Shown here one piece after another: positions 5,567 through 12,327 of a DNA stretch of 25,966 bases. The stretch covers positions 1 through 25,966 of IMG/VR virus record IMGVR_UViG_3300034198_005278, one strand, 5' to 3'. Position 1 is the first letter of the stretch, and each line of letters starts with the position of its first letter. Both the position numbers and the translations under genes were made by a program. The notes under the pieces were generated by a model, which was given only the letters and a program-made list of their open reading frames with translations, did not search any database and was not told where the DNA came from. The DNA is from a virus.

Positions 5567-7093
5567 TTATGCCCCCAGCCATGAAGTTGAAACACCGGAT
5601 TGTCCTTGGCTACGAACAACACGTTCCTTGGGATTGTACTCTCGGTGTGCCACAGGGAAGGCAAAGGTCACGCAGATGGCGTCAGCCGCATCGGGCGATG
5701 CCAGGCCACGAGCCTTCATGTCCTTTTTGCTTTCCAAGAAAATGGTGCCCCTAGAATCTGGCTTGATCATAGGCGAAATCAGATCAGTTTTCAAGAACCG
5801 ATCTTTGGGGATGCTGGCCGTGCGCAACCACTCCTTCATCTTTCCCCACATCTCGGCGCGCTTGTTGCCGTACATGATGGGGTTGGCCGACTTGTTGCCA
5901 AAGTTCACGCCCTTGACCTTGTAACGCTGTTCTTTGAGCCGATCCACAATCCCAGCGCCTAGGCCACCCTCATCAATCACCACCAGGGCCGGCTTGAATT
6001 CCTCAATAGCTTCAATGATGTGGCCAACAACCGTCATTGTGTCGTCGCCTCGGTGCCGGTCAATCCTCACAATGTCTCGGCCCTGGCGCACGGCAATCAC
6101 CGTCGCATCAGCGCCAAAACGCGCAGGGTCCACACCAATGATGATTGGGGCTGTCTGGTCTTTGTACTTTGACCGGTCCATTGCTTCATCCACAATGTTT
6201 GCCGGGATGAACTGGTCATCGCCTTCAGACGGGAACTGGCCATACACCTCAACGTGCGCCTGCGCGCTGTCCGGGCCGTACTCATCAATTATGTTTTGGT
6301 ACACAGCCTTGTCGGTGCCTTCCACCGTACGGGCGTCCACCACCTTGTTGGTCCAAAAGTCGCGCTTGCTGTTAAAGCATTCGTAAAAGTAGCCAGTATT
6401 GCGGCGGGGGTTGGAAAATGCCATCCATAGACGGTTCGGGGTGTTTTCGGTAAAGAAACCAGCCGTTACCGCCCAGATGGCATCATCAATACCGCTGGCC
6501 TCATCAAAAATCACCATCACGCCATCGTGATTGTGAACGCCGGCGTAAGAATCAGGGTTTTCTGCCGACCACAGCCGGCCCTCAACGGCCCAGTACCTGG
6601 TGCCCTTTTTGAGGTCTTTTTCAATCAGCTCGGTAAGCCAGTTGGCGGGGGCTACCTTGGTGGCCGACACCTCAAACCAATGGCTGTTAATGCTCATGGC
6701 CAACCACTTGGTAATCTCGGCCCATGTGACCGCTCGGAGCTGGGCTTCGCTGTTGGCTGAGATGATGGTCGTTGATCCTATCCTGGTGGACAGCATCCAG
6801 ATCGTAAGCCAAGACACCAAGGCAGACTTGCCAATACCTCGGCCAGAACTTACCGCATGGCGCAGGGTTTCAAAGTCAATCAGCCCCTTTTGGCGCTTGA
6901 TGTGCGAGGTGATCTCACGCAAGACCTCGCGCTGCCACTTGCGTGGACCCTTAAAGTTGGCCAGCGGCGTGTTCTCCTGGCCCCACGGGAATGCAAACAA
7001 CACAAACGCCTCTGGATCATCAGCAATGGCCGGCGACCACAGCGTGGCCATCAGTTCCTGTTCGTCTTCGGGCTTGTAGATTGTGGTTTGCAT
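5567..7093 (-). CDS. terL: Terminase large subunit (packaging ATPase and nuclease)
   Basis: This 508-residue protein drives DNA translocation into the procapsid and cuts the concatemer. The ATPase half shows a Walker A-type loop (SSGRGIGKSA, residues 82-91) and Walker B (VMVIFDEAS, 192-200), with the catalytic Glu after the Asp. The RNase H-like nuclease half shows GVDPARFGAD (D322), VVIDEGGLG (D374/E375) and SPDAADA (D468, D471). The length and motif order fit large terminases of podophages. Its ATG overlaps the stop of the ADP-ribosyltransferase-like gene (TAATG). The small subunit gene lies further upstream across a non-coding region rather than adjacent, which is unusual. Confidence 0.95.
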   Translation of the reverse strand: MQTTIYKPEDEQELMATLWSPAIADDPEAFVLFAFPWGQENTPLANFKGPRKWQREVLREITSHIKRQKGLIDFETLRHAVSSGRGIGKSALVSWLTIWMLSTRIGSTTIISANSEAQLRAVTWAEITKWLAMSINSHWFEVSATKVAPANWLTELIEKDLKKGTRYWAVEGRLWSAENPDSYAGVHNHDGVMVIFDEASGIDDAIWAVTAGFFTENTPNRLWMAFSNPRRNTGYFYECFNSKRDFWTNKVVDARTVEGTDKAVYQNIIDEYGPDSAQAHVEVYGQFPSEGDDQFIPANIVDEAMDRSKYKDQTAPIIIGVDPARFGADATVIAVRQGRDIVRIDRHRGDDTMTVVGHIIEAIEEFKPALVVIDEGGLGAGIVDRLKEQRYKVKGVNFGNKSANPIMYGNKRAEMWGKMKEWLRTASIPKDRFLKTDLISPMIKPDSRGTIFLESKKDMKARGLASPDAADAICVTFAFPVAHREYNPKERVVRSQGQSGVSTSWLGA

Positions 7094-8544
7094 TAACGAT
7101 TTGAACGCAGTTGGTTGCGCGGTTTCTCTTCAGCCAGCAGGTCGGGGGCGGCTACCCCCATTGCGGCAGCAATAGCGGCGTTTCTTCGCCAAGGATCAAA
7201 GGCGGCAAAACGGGAACGAATGTTATCTGGATTAGGAACAACAAATGATAAACCACCAAATTCTTCGTCTGAAACTTTTGTCGTACCCAAAAGTTTTCCT
7301 TGTTTTTTTATTTTTCTTTCTAAATTATCTAACGATTTAGAACTATATTGTGGATTTGTTATTAACAATGGATATGAAACATCAGAATTCATTTGTTTTG
7401 ACAAATCTTTTTCAGAAGTCCAAACGCCAGATTTAGCAAGTCTTTCAGCCCATTTACTGTCAGTATTTCTTGCAGTATTTTCACCCAATTTTGTTATGTC
7501 AAAATTGGCAATATCTACTGCATCAGTTGCGTGAAATGCGGGTGTATTAAATCCCATCGCCACAGCCCTTTGATCTGCCGTATTGTTCGCCGGCAATCCA
7601 AGCCCACCCTGCTCAACAGGCAATGCAGCACGTTGTTGCGCCAGACGCAAGGCTTCATCTTGAGGTCCAACAACACCAGACATTTGCGGGTGATAGCCAA
7701 ATTCATGGATCGAATCTGCATTCGTCCAAAGGTCTTTCGCCTTAACTTTTTGGCTCAAAATTTTGTAATCACCTTTGAGTGCAGATTCGCCATGAGTTTT
7801 AGCGTAATCCTTACTCAACGTCACCCAATCACCAGGGTTGATGCCAGAAATTTTCTCATCTTTGGGAACTGCGCGATACATCAAAACTTCCGCATTAGGA
7901 TTGCCTCGTACACGATGAGCCAAAGCAAATGCCTCTTTGTCTGCTATTGGAAAACCAGTTCCGTAATACTGCGCTGCCTTTGCCGAATAAACATCAGCAG
8001 GATACATCTGGCCACCGCCCGTCAAATCATGCAACGGCGCGCCAAAATCAGGACCAGGCGCTGTATGACCTGCTCGATACTCAGCAGGATTCAGGAAATT
8101 CATCCCGCCAACAGCCTCTGTGGACATCCCAACCGGCATACCTTTGGTGGCAAATGCCGCCTGCCTGGCCAACCTTGCCGCTTGCAATGCCTCCATCGGC
8201 GTGATCGGTACTGCCGATCCAAGGTTTGATGCGGCCTGTTGCGCCGGACCCTGCGGTGCCAAGGGCAGGCGTTGAAGCAAATCCTGAGTGCCATACGGCA
8301 CCTGCGGTTGCTGGTCATAACTCACATCGCCAAATGCCTCCATCGGCATCGGTGTGCGCAACAGGTTCATCAGGTCCGAAGGGATGCCAGCCGTTGCGGC
8401 GGCTCTGCCTCGCAAGAACTGAACCGGCATATCCAGCGCGGCCTGCGGGTCTTGCACCGTTCGGTTGCGGCGAAGGTGCGGGAAATACCCAAACGCCGCT
8501 CCTAGCGCGTTCTGGCTGTCTGGTGCTAGGCTGTTAATCGGCAT
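7093..8544 (-). CDS. Protein with two ADP-ribosyltransferase-like domains, 483 aa
   Basis: The first 200 residues are low in recognisable features, with an Ala/Gln-rich helical part near 95-135. A first ART-like domain spans about 185-300: MYRAVPKDE (R224), GDWVTLSKDYAKTHGE (S244), and EFGYHP (E281) give an Arg-Ser-Glu-type triad. A second spans about 335-452: AFHATDA (H338), a DITKLGENTA segment, SGVWTS, and PNPDNIRSRFAAFDPWRR. Both patterns resemble phage ART-like domains described in polyvalent proteins (Iyer and colleagues). Such proteins may be co-injected and modify host targets by transferring ADP-ribose from NAD, but activity is not shown. It sits between the small and large terminase genes, and its stop overlaps the terL start. 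Confidence 0.7.
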   Translation of the reverse strand: MPINSLAPDSQNALGAAFGYFPHLRRNRTVQDPQAALDMPVQFLRGRAAATAGIPSDLMNLLRTPMPMEAFGDVSYDQQPQVPYGTQDLLQRLPLAPQGPAQQAASNLGSAVPITPMEALQAARLARQAAFATKGMPVGMSTEAVGGMNFLNPAEYRAGHTAPGPDFGAPLHDLTGGGQMYPADVYSAKAAQYYGTGFPIADKEAFALAHRVRGNPNAEVLMYRAVPKDEKISGINPGDWVTLSKDYAKTHGESALKGDYKILSQKVKAKDLWTNADSIHEFGYHPQMSGVVGPQDEALRLAQQRAALPVEQGGLGLPANNTADQRAVAMGFNTPAFHATDAVDIANFDITKLGENTARNTDSKWAERLAKSGVWTSEKDLSKQMNSDVSYPLLITNPQYSSKSLDNLERKIKKQGKLLGTTKVSDEEFGGLSFVVPNPDNIRSRFAAFDPWRRNAAIAAAMGVAAPDLLAEEKPRNQLRSNR

Positions 8545-8616
8545 GGGTTGATGTTAAATGATTTTGCGGAAAATAAAAATAAAAATGTTCGCGGGGGTAC
8601 CGTTCCCGTTGCCATT

Positions 8617-8652
8617 CCCCGCCGGCCCTCCCTCCCCCCACCCCCGCCGGCC
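8617..8652. repeat. Direct repeat CCCCGCCGGCC flanking the G-rich tract
   Basis: The 11-mer CCCCGCCGGCC occurs at 8617-8627 and again at 8642-8652, 25 bp apart, with the C-tract between. Each copy contains the palindrome GCCGGC. It may be a protein binding pair or simply a product of the local GC bias. Confidence 0.5.
8626..8645 (-). other. G-quadruplex-forming motif on minus strand
   Basis: The plus strand reads CCC-T-CCC-T-CCCCCC-A-CCCCC, so the minus strand has four runs of three to six G separated by single bases. That is the arrangement expected to give the most stable parallel G-quadruplex. It lies in the leader of the ART-domain/terminase transcription unit and about 30 bp from the nearest DnaA-box-like site. 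A fold could form in the minus-strand DNA or in its RNA. Formation is predicted from sequence only. Confidence 0.7.
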
Positions 8653-8677
8653 AGCCGGTCGGGACGCCTGGCGCGGG

Positions 8678-8766
8678 TTGTCCACAGGGTATTGTCCACA
8701 TCTGTCCACAGATGCCTGTGCATAACTCGAAATTGCCCTAATTTGCGCTTTTTACCCTGTGGATAA
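8678..8766. other. Cluster of five DnaA-box-like 9-mers, candidate replication origin
   Basis: TTGTCCACA occurs at 8678-8686 and 8692-8700, and CTGTCCACA at 8702-8710. On the opposite strand there is TTATGCACA (8717-8725, plus strand TGTGCATAA) and a perfect consensus TTATCCACA (8758-8766, plus strand TGTGGATAA). The bacterial DnaA consensus is TTWTNCACA. Two sites fit it exactly and three deviate at one or two positions. Five sites in 89 bp, mixed in orientation and followed by an AT-rich patch (8763-8800), are the classic arrangement of a DnaA-dependent origin. DnaA is a host protein, so the phage would borrow it. Confidence 0.55.
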
Positions 8767-8902
8767 CTCAAAGTTTATTAACATAATGATCATCGTATAA
8801 CGCAGACAGGGGTTTGTGTTGTGTTTATACAACATATGTGCGCGCGCGTGTATTGCCAAAGAATTTGGCTATCGCGTGCCCCAACCCCATAGCCAAACCC
8901 TA

Positions 8903-9415
8903 TCACGCCTCTTTTGCCTGCACATCAACGATGTTGCTTTCATCGGTAAGCACACGCTGCTTTGCCTCCTTCAAGGCATCCATGACGCTAATGCGTGTAT
9001 CCGTCACCGACACATCAATGCGGTCGCCATACATCTTTGGCTTGAGCTTTGACGCAATCCATTTGCGCGCATCAACCTGCATCCGCTTTTGTTGAACCCA
9101 AGCCGATGCGGCAGGTCCTTCAAGGTAAGCTGGCATCTCCTCATCAGCCAACTCCAAAATCTCCTCGGCCAGGCGGTCGGCTCGATTCTCAATGGCTCGC
9201 TCATACATCCCGCGAAACTCTGGATTGCTTTTAAGCATATTCATCACCGCCTGGTACGACGGCATACCCTGGCCCTTGAGCGCGGTATACAGGCTCTTAC
9301 CCTGAGACATCTGCTCCGTCATCTCAACCCAGCACGGATTGTCAATCCCAAAAACTGTGGGCCGTCCACGTCCACGCTTTACCTCAACCACCGGCTGATC
9401 CAAGTTATTGCTCAC
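8903..9415 (-). CDS. terS: Terminase small subunit, 170 aa, GTG start
   Basis: The protein recognises phage DNA and recruits the large subunit for packaging. The sequence has an N-terminal helix-turn-helix-like region (GKSLYTALKGQGMPSYQAV followed by LKSNPEFRGMYERAIENRAD) and a long helical segment with VQQKRMQVDARKWIASKLKP, then KMYGD. This is the pattern of phage terminase small subunits that feed P22-like packaging motors. I place the start at the GTG at 9415 because GAGGAG lies 8 nt upstream. The frame can be extended to a TTG at 9430, but that would put the ribosome site inside the gene. The large subunit follows only after a 358-bp gap and the ART-domain gene. Confidence 0.85.
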   Translation of the reverse strand: MSNNLDQPVVEVKRGRGRPTVFGIDNPCWVEMTEQMSQGKSLYTALKGQGMPSYQAVMNMLKSNPEFRGMYERAIENRADRLAEEILELADEEMPAYLEGPAASAWVQQKRMQVDARKWIASKLKPKMYGDRIDVSVTDTRISVMDALKEAKQRVLTDESNIVDVQAKEA

Positions 9416-9501
9416 TTGTAAACTCCTCAAAAAGAAAAGGTACTCACGCCAGGTGGCGCTTTCCCTTCAAAATGCGGCAACTGCAAAATCCCCGCACACG
9501 A

Positions 9502-9880: not shown

Positions 9881-10080
9881 ACCCGAACCGAACCGAGCCG
9901 AAACAGTTTACGAGCCGAAACCGAATGGGTATATATACCCTTTCGGTAAGTTTCGGTTCGAAAAACCGACTGTTTGGACCGGCGACTTCGGTAAGTTTCG
10001 GTAAGTTTCGGTTAATTCGGTTCATAGTTTCGGTTCAGCCGAATCAGCCGATTCGGTTACCGATTCGGTAAGTTTCGGTT
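9881..10080. repeat. Inverted array of CCGAA/TTCGG iterons around a TATA-centred palindrome
   Basis: On the plus strand the left part (9881-9925) carries repeated CCGAA units, and the right part (9942-10080) carries repeated TTCGG units. The unit TTCGGTAAGTTTCGGT appears at 9942-9957, twice overlapping in 9987-10012 and again at 10064-10079. The centre is an exact 14-bp palindrome, GGGTATATATACCC (9927-9940), which extends to 9920-9947 with one mismatched pair. An outer inverted pair, AAACAGT (9901-9907) and ACTGTTT (9969-9975), encloses it. A further small inverted repeat (CCGAATC/GATTCGG) lies near 10039-10056. Iterons flanking an AT-rich palindrome next to a primase/helicase gene suggest a replication origin or operator array. 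Confidence 0.85.
9920..9947. other. 28-bp imperfect palindrome with TATA core
   Basis: ACCGAA-T-GGGTATATATACCC-T-TTCGGT reads the same on both strands apart from one T/T pair (9926/9941). The 8-bp alternating TA core would melt or extrude easily. As RNA it would form a strong hairpin with an A/U top and no following U-run on either strand, so it does not look like an ordinary intrinsic terminator. Confidence 0.8.
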
Positions 10081-12112
10081 CACTGCCGATGTCCATATTC
10101 GGCCTTGTTCGGTAGCCCCTTGAATCCTCAATAACCAAAGACTTTTTGACCAAACTGTCCACAACTTCCCTAAACCGATTGGATTTGATGCCATGCTCTT
10201 TGGCCGATTCCCGCCACTCGTCGTAGGTCACCAGATCAATAATGTTGTTCTTTTCATGGCTAATTTGAATGGCCACCAAACAGTCCAGCGTCTTTCTCTG
10301 GTTGCCGGCGAGATAGGTTTTCTTCTGGATTGAGTTGGTCAGTCCACTAATGTCCACCGCCGTCAGGTATGCGCCCTTGACCGCATTGCCATGTTTGTCC
10401 TTGATTGGCAGGTCAACCTGGGTGATCTGAAAGTTCTTGGGTGCCGGCATCTCGGCATCCTTCATCTTCTTGGACTCAAAGGCAATGGTCTTGGTGCCTG
10501 AGTCCAACTGGCATCTGTACTCAGCATCCAGCGCGCCCTTGAGTGCCGTTGAACCCCGACTACGATCCTTGTCAGCCACGCCTGAGTGGTGAACCACTAC
10601 CACGCAGCACCGATATGGCTTCCTCAAGTAGGTGTCCAGGTGCTGGATGAAGGCATTCATGTCCTGGGTGCTGTTCTCGTCGCCCCCATAATTCCTGGCC
10701 AAGGTGTCAATCACGATCAGGCTGGGTGTAGTCCCCGACTGCTGGCACAATTCTTTGATGGACTCAGCCACAACCGCCGCCTCGGTGGCGTCATACAACT
10801 GAGCCGCTCTGTGGCTTTTATACAACGGTGCGCCGTTCAATGTAGCCCCATTTCCCAGCTCCCAGCCCTTGAACCGCCGAGCCAAACCGTTATGGCCCTC
10901 ACCCGCAATAAAGAATACGGCACCCTGCTTTACCTCATGCCCGTGCCATGCCCTGCCAGTGGCCACACAACAGGCCAGGTCAATGCTGACGAACGATTTA
11001 CCGCCGCCTGGGTCGCCAAACACCTGTGCCAGTGAGTCGCTCTCAATATAGTCATCCACGATCCAATTGATTTCCGATAGCTCTAAACTATCAACCCGTG
11101 AGAACTCAAAGGCCAGTTTGTCTTTCAATGGCCCGGCCACCCTCTCGATTTGTTCTTTGACCGCATCCAACCCTTGCAGGCAGTGCAGGTCGTTGAAGTC
11201 AGTTGGCTTGTTGTCAACCATGTCAGAATCGCCAAATTGTGGGTACACGATCTCGCCAAACACCAGTGCCGCAGCCGCTCTGCCCTTGGTAACGCCAGGG
11301 TTGCCTTCTGTAAACTGATCGTTGTCAGCGCCAATAATAATTTTGGCACCAGGAAACATCTCTTTGGCGCTCTTGGCCACCTTGGCCAGGTTGCCGCAAT
11401 CAAACGCCACCATCACAGTGTAGCCTGTTGCCTCATGGATCGACGCGCAGGTGGCAAACCCCTCACCCACAAACACAATCTTACGATTCCCGCGTAGCTC
11501 AAAGAATCCACCCTCAATCTTGCCGCCCTTCAAGAACCGCTTGTTGCCATCCGCATCAATGGTTTGGTATGACAGAATTTCACCTGCCTGGTCGATCACA
11601 GGCACCACCAGCCGCCCAGCCCGGTCAATCTTGATCCCGTGAGCGCCAATGTGCTTTCTCACCAAGTATGGGTGGTCATCGCTCGCATCAGCATAAGTCC
11701 CGACCTCGTCCTCCGCACGCTCTGCGGCCACCGCTTGGGATGCCAGCCGATCAGCATCCTTTTTGGCTCTTACCTCTGACAGCCACTTGTCATGTTCAAA
11801 CCGCTCGGTAAACGACATTACTCGGCCAGTATCTGCCACCCACTTGGACTCAAACACCGGCTCCTTCCAGCACCCAGCAATCCCAACCGGCACCTTGCCG
11901 CTGGCGTGCAGTATGTACCACCCATCCAACGCCCCCTTTTTGCTGGAGATATGTGGCACCCGGTGTATCTCACCATCAGCCACGACCTGATCCTTTATCA
12001 GCAAGCCAGCCGCCTCACAATGACGCCTGAATGATTCTTCAGGCTTGATCAGGTCCTGGCTCTCAGTCGCTGCCGCAAACCCGTTGGGAAAAATAGATGT
12101 AATTGATGTCAT
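10022..12112 (-). CDS. TOPRIM primase / RecA-fold helicase, 696 aa
   Basis: This is a fused replication protein. Residues about 160-310 form a TOPRIM-type primase core with VFVGEGFATC (E217) and IIIGADND (D263, D265). Residues about 345-545 form a RepA-like/AAA_25 helicase core: Walker A GDPGGGKS (366-373), FIAGEGHNGL, Walker B LIVIDTLARN (465-474) and HHSGVADKDRSRGSTALKGA (508 onward). It probably unwinds and primes phage DNA at the fork. No N-terminal CHC2 zinc finger is visible. The start overlaps the regulator's stop as ATGA. Oddly, the last 20 residues (two EPKL and two TES units) are encoded by the iteron array that continues downstream of the gene. Confidence 0.88.
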   Translation of the reverse strand: MTSITSIFPNGFAAATESQDLIKPEESFRRHCEAAGLLIKDQVVADGEIHRVPHISSKKGALDGWYILHASGKVPVGIAGCWKEPVFESKWVADTGRVMSFTERFEHDKWLSEVRAKKDADRLASQAVAAERAEDEVGTYADASDDHPYLVRKHIGAHGIKIDRAGRLVVPVIDQAGEILSYQTIDADGNKRFLKGGKIEGGFFELRGNRKIVFVGEGFATCASIHEATGYTVMVAFDCGNLAKVAKSAKEMFPGAKIIIGADNDQFTEGNPGVTKGRAAAALVFGEIVYPQFGDSDMVDNKPTDFNDLHCLQGLDAVKEQIERVAGPLKDKLAFEFSRVDSLELSEINWIVDDYIESDSLAQVFGDPGGGKSFVSIDLACCVATGRAWHGHEVKQGAVFFIAGEGHNGLARRFKGWELGNGATLNGAPLYKSHRAAQLYDATEAAVVAESIKELCQQSGTTPSLIVIDTLARNYGGDENSTQDMNAFIQHLDTYLRKPYRCCVVVVHHSGVADKDRSRGSTALKGALDAEYRCQLDSGTKTIAFESKKMKDAEMPAPKNFQITQVDLPIKDKHGNAVKGAYLTAVDISGLTNSIQKKTYLAGNQRKTLDCLVAIQISHEKNNIIDLVTYDEWRESAKEHGIKSNRFREVVDSLVKKSLVIEDSRGYRTRPNMDIGSEPKLTESVTESADSAEPKL

Positions 12113-12327
12113 TCTTGCACCCCTACCAGCTCAGGCCAAATGTCTGGCCAACTGCCTTGGCACACCATCTTGCGAGTGACGCGGCCATCGGTCTGCTGCT
12201 CTATGCGAACAGCCTCCCAGGCCGACATCTCACGCCTGCCGGTAAGGCACTGGTAGAGATATTGTTCATTGATGCCAACTTTTTCTGCCAGTTGTCGGCG
12301 CTCATCTGGTGTAATTTGTGTGTTCAT
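12109..12327 (-). CDS. Cro/YdaS-like helix-turn-helix regulator, 72 aa
   Basis: Residues 10-31 (RRQLAEKVGINEQYLYQCLTG in part) form a helix-turn-helix. The following RREMSAWEAVRIEQQTDGRV and PDIWPEL match the tail typical of the YdaS/Cro-like family of small prophage regulators. Such proteins bind short palindromic operators and set early gene expression. Its stop overlaps the primase/helicase start (ATGA). It is transcribed divergently from the early plus-strand operon, and three AGCA-N3-TGCT palindromes lie in the shared control region, one only 15 bp before its start. I infer that it represses the plus-strand promoter and itself. Confidence 0.75.
   Translation of the reverse strand: MNTQITPDERRQLAEKVGINEQYLYQCLTGRREMSAWEAVRIEQQTDGRVTRKMVCQGSWPDIWPELVGVQE

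Follow-up and report, generated by a model that had tools for sequence, protein, structure and literature searches.

Putative DnaA boxes phased to a predicted host XerC/XerD site beside the terminase genes of integrase-less freshwater phages

Why would a phage carry five sites resembling DnaA boxes within 89 bp, next to its terminase genes? The question is raised by a 25,966-base stretch of phage DNA in IMG/VR (IMGVR_UViG_3300034198_005278), the whole of which is called the window below. The cluster lies in a 358-bp gap between the gene of an Sf6-type terminase small subunit (terS, positions 8903-9430, minus strand) and an ORF of 483 amino acids located downstream (7093-8544, minus strand), part of which matches phrog_2579 ('ParB C-terminal domain'). 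Past this ORF come the gene of the terminase large subunit (terL, 5567-7093, minus strand) and a P22-like portal gene. The 483-residue ORF is missing in some relatives; in contig G002, it is absent between terS and terL. Just before it, a GC-rich stretch (8570-8676) ends in an A/T run (8570-8586), an arrangement that is conserved in front of the next gene. On the far side of terS, TTCGGT iteron-like repeats (9883-10081) lie beside the gene of a Toprim/AAA_25 primase-helicase (10022-12112, minus strand). A small YdaS-like (Cro-type) protein is encoded at 12109-12327, by the sole regulator-like gene among the ten window proteins that were scanned.

The boxes and the adjoining Xer-type site in the window

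The consensus of DnaA boxes is TTWTNCACA, with degenerate positions 3 and 5. As the initial annotation had described, two exact matches and three near matches are present in the window. Box 1 (TTATCCACA, 8758-8766) and box 2 (TTATGCACA, 8717-8725) match exactly on the minus strand. On the plus strand, box 3 (CTGTCCACA, 8702-8710) has two mismatches, and boxes 4 and 5 (both TTGTCCACA, 8692-8700 and 8678-8686) have one each. Judged on the window alone, the cluster is not significant and lies within chance. The whole window holds two exact matches against an expected 3.23, and its four sites with at most one mismatch within 89 bp were equalled or beaten in 20 of 300 dinucleotide shuffles (three or fewer sites per 89 bp in 280, four in 19, and five in one).

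The boxes were said to adjoin an AT-rich patch. The patch exists, but not as a simple unwinding element; by its sequence identity, it is an Xer recombination site of the dif/pdif type. The predicted 28-bp site (8776-8803, minus strand), a conserved block in relatives that resembles Acinetobacter pdif, has an 11-6-11 layout consisting of a XerC arm (8793-8803), a central region TGATCA (8787-8792), and a XerD arm (8776-8786; TTATGTTAATA on the minus strand). A spacer of 9 bp (8767-8775, minus strand) separates the XerD arm from box 1, instead of the usual 10 bp; among the redundant matches listed, the spacer is 10 bp in 188 of 190 and 9 bp in two. In relatives, an 11-bp XerC arm, a 6-bp centre, and an 11-bp XerD arm near TTATGTTAAAT were found, with the consensus ACTTTATACAA-TGACCA-TTATGTTAAGT over 81 non-redundant modules, all of which had been chosen beforehand for having the XerD arm and box 1. 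The XerD arm TTATGTTAAGT is near-invariant in this preselected table.

A BLAST search of plasmids with one phage variant (site, spacer, and box 1) gave 523 records, 504 of which are from Acinetobacter, with individually weak E-values (best 0.02). The two Acinetobacter plasmid matches that were read are pdif sites, and one of them is 25/28 identical to the variant of phage contig L016. In the available portion of one study, ACTTCGTATAATCGCCATTATGTTAAAT is among the oligonucleotides for binding and cleavage assays with A. baumannii XerC and XerD (PMC7399989). The arm bases agree with this pdif oligonucleotide at 20 of 22 positions in L016, 18 of 22 in the consensus, and 14 of 22 in the window; thus, the window copy is a degenerate member of the group. 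Against known phages, the module region (boxes plus Xer site) gave weak matches alone; the Roseophage SIO1 match has TTATGTTAA and no boxes.

Conservation, phasing, and carriers of the module

To the question of whether the cluster is more than chance, relatives give a clear answer. Eighty of them were collected by their TerS (69-83% identity), and boxes are present in the 450 bp after terS, with the exception of L017, whose contig ends sooner. The initial annotation had suggested comparing 9-mer conservation with surrounding DNA, and had named an absence of conservation as a refuting outcome. In the window and the 80 relatives, 312 box-like 9-mers occur in 35.7 kb after terS versus 64 in the remaining 593 kb of these loci, an enrichment of about 80-fold, and the boxes keep fixed offsets; the refuting outcome did not occur. 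A chance cluster would fit the window alone, but it is ruled out by this conservation and by the test of canonical offsets described below.

Three types of arrays were distinguished. In type I, the boxes stand at 0(+), 41(+), 56(-), 66(-), and 80(-) in the orientation of TerS. Type II keeps boxes 1, 2, and 5 (0, 41, and 79), lacks boxes 3 and 4, and can point either way relative to terS. Type III keeps the boxes at +77 and +100/101 and has lost boxes 1 and 2; on the XerC side, near -113 and -89, most of the type III arrays listed have further boxes. Canonical offsets are occupied by 267 boxes, admitted with no more than two mismatches apart from position 5. In these, variation is 30% at position 3, which also takes G, 23% at position 5, and at most 6% at every other position. 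The boxes fit TTWTNCACA and are predicted DnaA sites. A conserved AAGTATTACA-like motif (L371, L374, L419, and similar contigs) stands near +23 in type III and near +44 in type I, a difference of 21 bp or some two helical turns.

The coupling of the boxes to the Xer site was examined by three linkage scans, which searched for the XerD arm plus box 1, the array alone, or the Xer core alone. Their counts are a sample (at least 120 matches) of partly redundant loci, several per contig, and non-redundant counts are given where they were made. With 8-12 bp allowed between the XerD arm and box 1, the gap is 10 bp in every match listed. The array-only scan yielded 42 loci first found there; one at a contig edge was left out, and an Xer site lies at zero shift, with at most three mismatches, in 41 of the 41 usable new loci listed. 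Pooled, 107 of 107 distinct arrays among the matches listed have the Xer site, and no array of canonical spacing lacking it occurs among them.

The scan with the Xer core alone is the unbiased version of a separate offset tally, which is biased for box 1 because most of its sites came from loci chosen by the XerD arm plus box 1. It gave at least 101 sites, 51 of them non-redundant among the matches listed. The canonical offsets are +21 and +62 on one strand and +77, +87, and +100/101 on the other, where boxes 1 to 5 of the window stand at +21, +62, +77, +87, and +101. At these offsets, 38 of the 51 non-redundant sites listed have at least one box and 31 have at least two; with the offsets shifted by 1-15 bp, none of the 51 has a box save two at +1. 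Among the matches listed, box density per kb-strand is 11.5 within +11 to +112 and 0.93 outside. Thirteen of the 51 non-redundant sites have no canonical box, five of which have boxes elsewhere within 130 bp, and the 60 newly fetched Xer loci among the matches listed comprise 43 with canonical boxes, six with boxes elsewhere, and 11 with none within 130 bp. Since every array listed comes with an Xer site and Xer sites are sometimes box-free, the boxes depend on the Xer site and not the reverse. The constancy of the spacing is due in part to common descent.

In the two box-free records that were examined, L365 and L368, the Xer site abuts the 3' end of a gene weakly matching O-like replication initiators, and there are no DnaA boxes.

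The carriers fall into at least four gene-content families: A (the window type), B (L277/G017), C (L250), and D (L240/L371). They were assigned by linked BLAST clusters; a separate quick assignment, used for the repeat counts below, left 24 of 112 carriers unplaced. The module is common to many freshwater phages. It maps between the replication genes and the terminase genes and adjoins the latter in every family examined. In family D, the small ORF in the TerS position is dissimilar to the window TerS, TerL is remotely similar, and the portal is of another kind; the module is identical in kind despite the differing terminase. Relative to terS or terL, the partly redundant loci comprise 147 in the same orientation, 18 inverted, and 24 undecided, and the internal spacing is equal in both orientations. 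A tyrosine integrase (PF00589) is absent in 26 large contigs and 27 further records, while the same search found it in 14 of 14 control genomes.

Among 44 large contigs, the module was found in 30 by pattern, and the window with its 9-bp spacer makes 31. PolA (PF00476) is encoded by 11 of the 44, no contig has both, and two (G007 and G013) have neither; these counts are phylogenetically non-independent. The 11 PolA contigs belong to a clade with 80-85% TerL identity that has no Xer site; 11 of the 12 sister-clade contigs lacking the module encode a family-A DNA polymerase. In a second set of 27 records, PolA occurs in one, L418, which has an Xer site and no boxes. Several members of the PolA clade have dispersed tandem TTGTCCACA pairs upstream of TerL (L139, 6850-7500; L267, 8980-9450; L156, 40-420), again with no Xer site.

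Possible functions of the module

What could such a module do? I consider it about an even chance that the cluster belongs to a compound recombination module, of which the DnaA boxes are one half and the 28-bp site for host XerC and XerD is the other. Since the phages have no tyrosine integrase, they would use the host XerCD, which would act at the phage site. The boxes may be read as Xer accessory sequences mainly because they depend on the Xer site and not the reverse. The boxes, in phase with the XerD arm, would be occupied by host DnaA as an accessory or architectural protein, and the complex would direct recombination between two sites carried by a single phage genome. Such recombination, at an early stage of infection or during a plasmid-like existence, would probably circularise injected terminally redundant DNA or convert multimers to monomers. 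Lying by the terminase genes, the site would be near the packaging start and thus inside the terminal redundancy, as with loxP and pac of phage P1. Contig ends are in excess on the XerC side (23 of 115 lie within 500 bp versus 6.8 expected; 6 of 115 on the box side); this excess, which may be an assembly effect, is weakly compatible with such a position.

Host-protein sites at defined positions beside the core, the hallmark of accessory sequences, were found (38 and 31 of the 51 sites listed, as above), and binding to them is predicted. Several points count against the accessory reading, among them the two box-free sites beside an O-like gene and the part played by common descent in the constant spacing. 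The boxes of types I and II lie on the XerD side, and only type III has them on both sides; the degenerate Xer copy of the window has a 9-bp spacer; and, in the portions of the literature that were available, there is no precedent for DnaA as an Xer accessory protein, nor a relevant case in phage-plasmids or tailed phages. The fuller proposal is that host DnaA gates the XerCD-dependent circularisation or monomerisation of the incoming genome, and that several freshwater phage families share this device in place of their own integrase or resolvase and initiator. I put this forward tentatively, at somewhat less than an even chance.

The main rival is a DnaA-dependent phage origin beside an independent Xer monomerisation site, in the style of a phage-plasmid replicon: host DnaA would open the DNA and load the host replisome, and XerCD would resolve multimers. 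I regard this as possible but rather unlikely. It is favoured by the tracking of replication gene type, as the module (31 of 44 contigs) and PolA (11 of 44) never coincide, by the occurrence, in the sampled carrier families, of primase-helicases that contain an AAA_25 domain or match AAA_25-type PHROGs, and by the missing boxes in the two records where an O-like initiator gene adjoins the Xer site. These two records would also fit an arrangement in which the Xer site lies near the origin and the DnaA boxes are the origin where a phage initiator is missing. In addition, relatives have a conserved G-rich block and then a run of A/T only, together spanning about +120 to +225 as counted from the Xer site, before the next gene; in many carriers, the run and the Xer site are about 200 bp apart. 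However, upon inversion of the module in some relatives, the A/T run stays on the TerL side, and its distance to the boxes is not fixed. Canonical arrays never occur without an Xer site among the matches listed, and the GC skew of six joined contigs has no clear two-armed pattern, gene strand being a confounder.

Another origin candidate in family A is the set of conserved iterons beside the primase gene. The initial annotation had proposed the box cluster as a second origin-like locus besides this iteron array. The array is indeed conserved 1.2-1.3 kb away: in relatives too, TTTCGGT repeats lie about 1.3 kb from the module, beside the primase gene. Clusters of at least three repeats within 250 bp occur in 37 of 52 family A carriers, in none of the 19 family B and 7 family C carriers, in one of the 10 of family D, and in 9 of 24 unplaced carriers; among assigned families, they are thus a trait of window-type phages and one other carrier. 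The DnaA cluster itself is conserved, while its role as an origin is weakened by the Xer identity of the patch, by the constant company of the Xer site among the matches listed, and by the flipping of the module.

A DARS- or datA-like element, which would alter the ATP/ADP state or the free level of host DnaA with the Xer site being incidental, is improbable. Boxes 2, 3, and 4 are oriented as in the cores of E. coli DARS1 and DARS2, and type III arrays have a similar triad on their XerC side. Their spacing, 0(+), 15(-), and 25(-) here versus 0(+), 14(-), and 26(-) in E. coli, is off by 1 bp at both positions, however. The phasing of the boxes is to the Xer site, boxes 3 and 4 are missing from type II arrays, and inspection by eye revealed no convincing IHF site between boxes 1 and 2.

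More improbable still is an attP that integrates at chromosomal dif through host XerCD, as in CTXphi-type elements, a reading invited by a dif-like site in phages with no integrase. The central region of the phage sites is mostly NNNCCA, whereas most Burkholderiales dif matches have TGTATA. The MAGs of relatives are labelled Rhodoferax, Burkholderiales, beta proteobacterium, Methylococcaceae, and actinobacterium. Canonical dif was found in 45 of 200 Burkholderiales genomes; it was not found in 60 Rhodoferax-group genomes, nor, with two mismatches allowed, in 25. A TerL scan of 84,980 species genomes gave six MAG contigs, none of which has the module, and no phage-type Xer site occurs in 398 Pseudomonadota genomes, which may not include that of the host. 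A dif-integrating element (IMEX) was provisionally rejected because the centre of the phage sites is unlike that of most Burkholderiales dif matches and because the genomes searched, which may lack the host's, contain no junction or integrated copy.

A packaging (pac) site, to which the small subunit of the terminase would bind, is suggested by the adjoining terminase genes in every family examined and by the excess of contig ends on the XerC side with no such excess on the box side. It is the least probable and is rejected as the main reading because module orientation and terminase type vary (family D has the same module with an unrelated ORF in the TerS position and a remote TerL); it also leaves the Xer and DnaA sequence signatures unexplained.

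If the recombination module with DnaA accessory sequences is real, it gives DnaA a new task, that of an architectural protein for site-specific recombination, and offers a compact case in which a 130-bp module of host-factor sites replaces integrase and initiator genes. The module is widespread (at least 120 matches in the scans) and may account for the circularisation or the monomeric state of tailed phages that have no integrase. Its sharing by integrase-free freshwater phages suggests the borrowing of host proteins for genome management.

Comparison with known systems

Like the phage module, E. coli oriC, DARS1, and DARS2 contain multiple DnaA boxes that differ in orientation and keep a fixed spacing. 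The phage module differs in its coupling to an Xer site, in a spacing unlike that of DARS, and in an A/T run at a variable distance from the boxes.

The plasmid sites cer (ColE1) and psi (pSC101) are similar in that an XerCD core of 28-30 bp lies by about 100-200 bp of positioned host-protein sites. According to the available portions of three studies, cer and psi depend on some 180-200 bp of accessory sequence to which ArgR or ArcA binds together with PepA, and which makes recombination intramolecular (PMC2409434, PMC5357621, PMC11724359). In the available portion of one of them, the accessory sequences are on the XerC side, and PepA has no recognisable motif (PMC11724359). The phage module instead has DnaA boxes, on the XerD side in types I and II or on both sides in type III, and belongs to integrase-less tailed phages rather than plasmids. 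By analogy, phased DnaA could build a complex like those of cer and psi.

The pdif sites of Acinetobacter plasmids have nearly the same 28-bp core (25/28 for the L016 variant). The two that were read have no box array; one 1.2-kb stretch contains a lone box and the other none. In phage P1, loxP lies near pac and helps to circularise infecting DNA. In the loxP/Cre system, according to the available portion of one study, a recombination site of the phage maintains the plasmid prophage as a monomer (PMC2409434). P1 encodes its own Cre, whereas the phage module would use the recombinase of the host.
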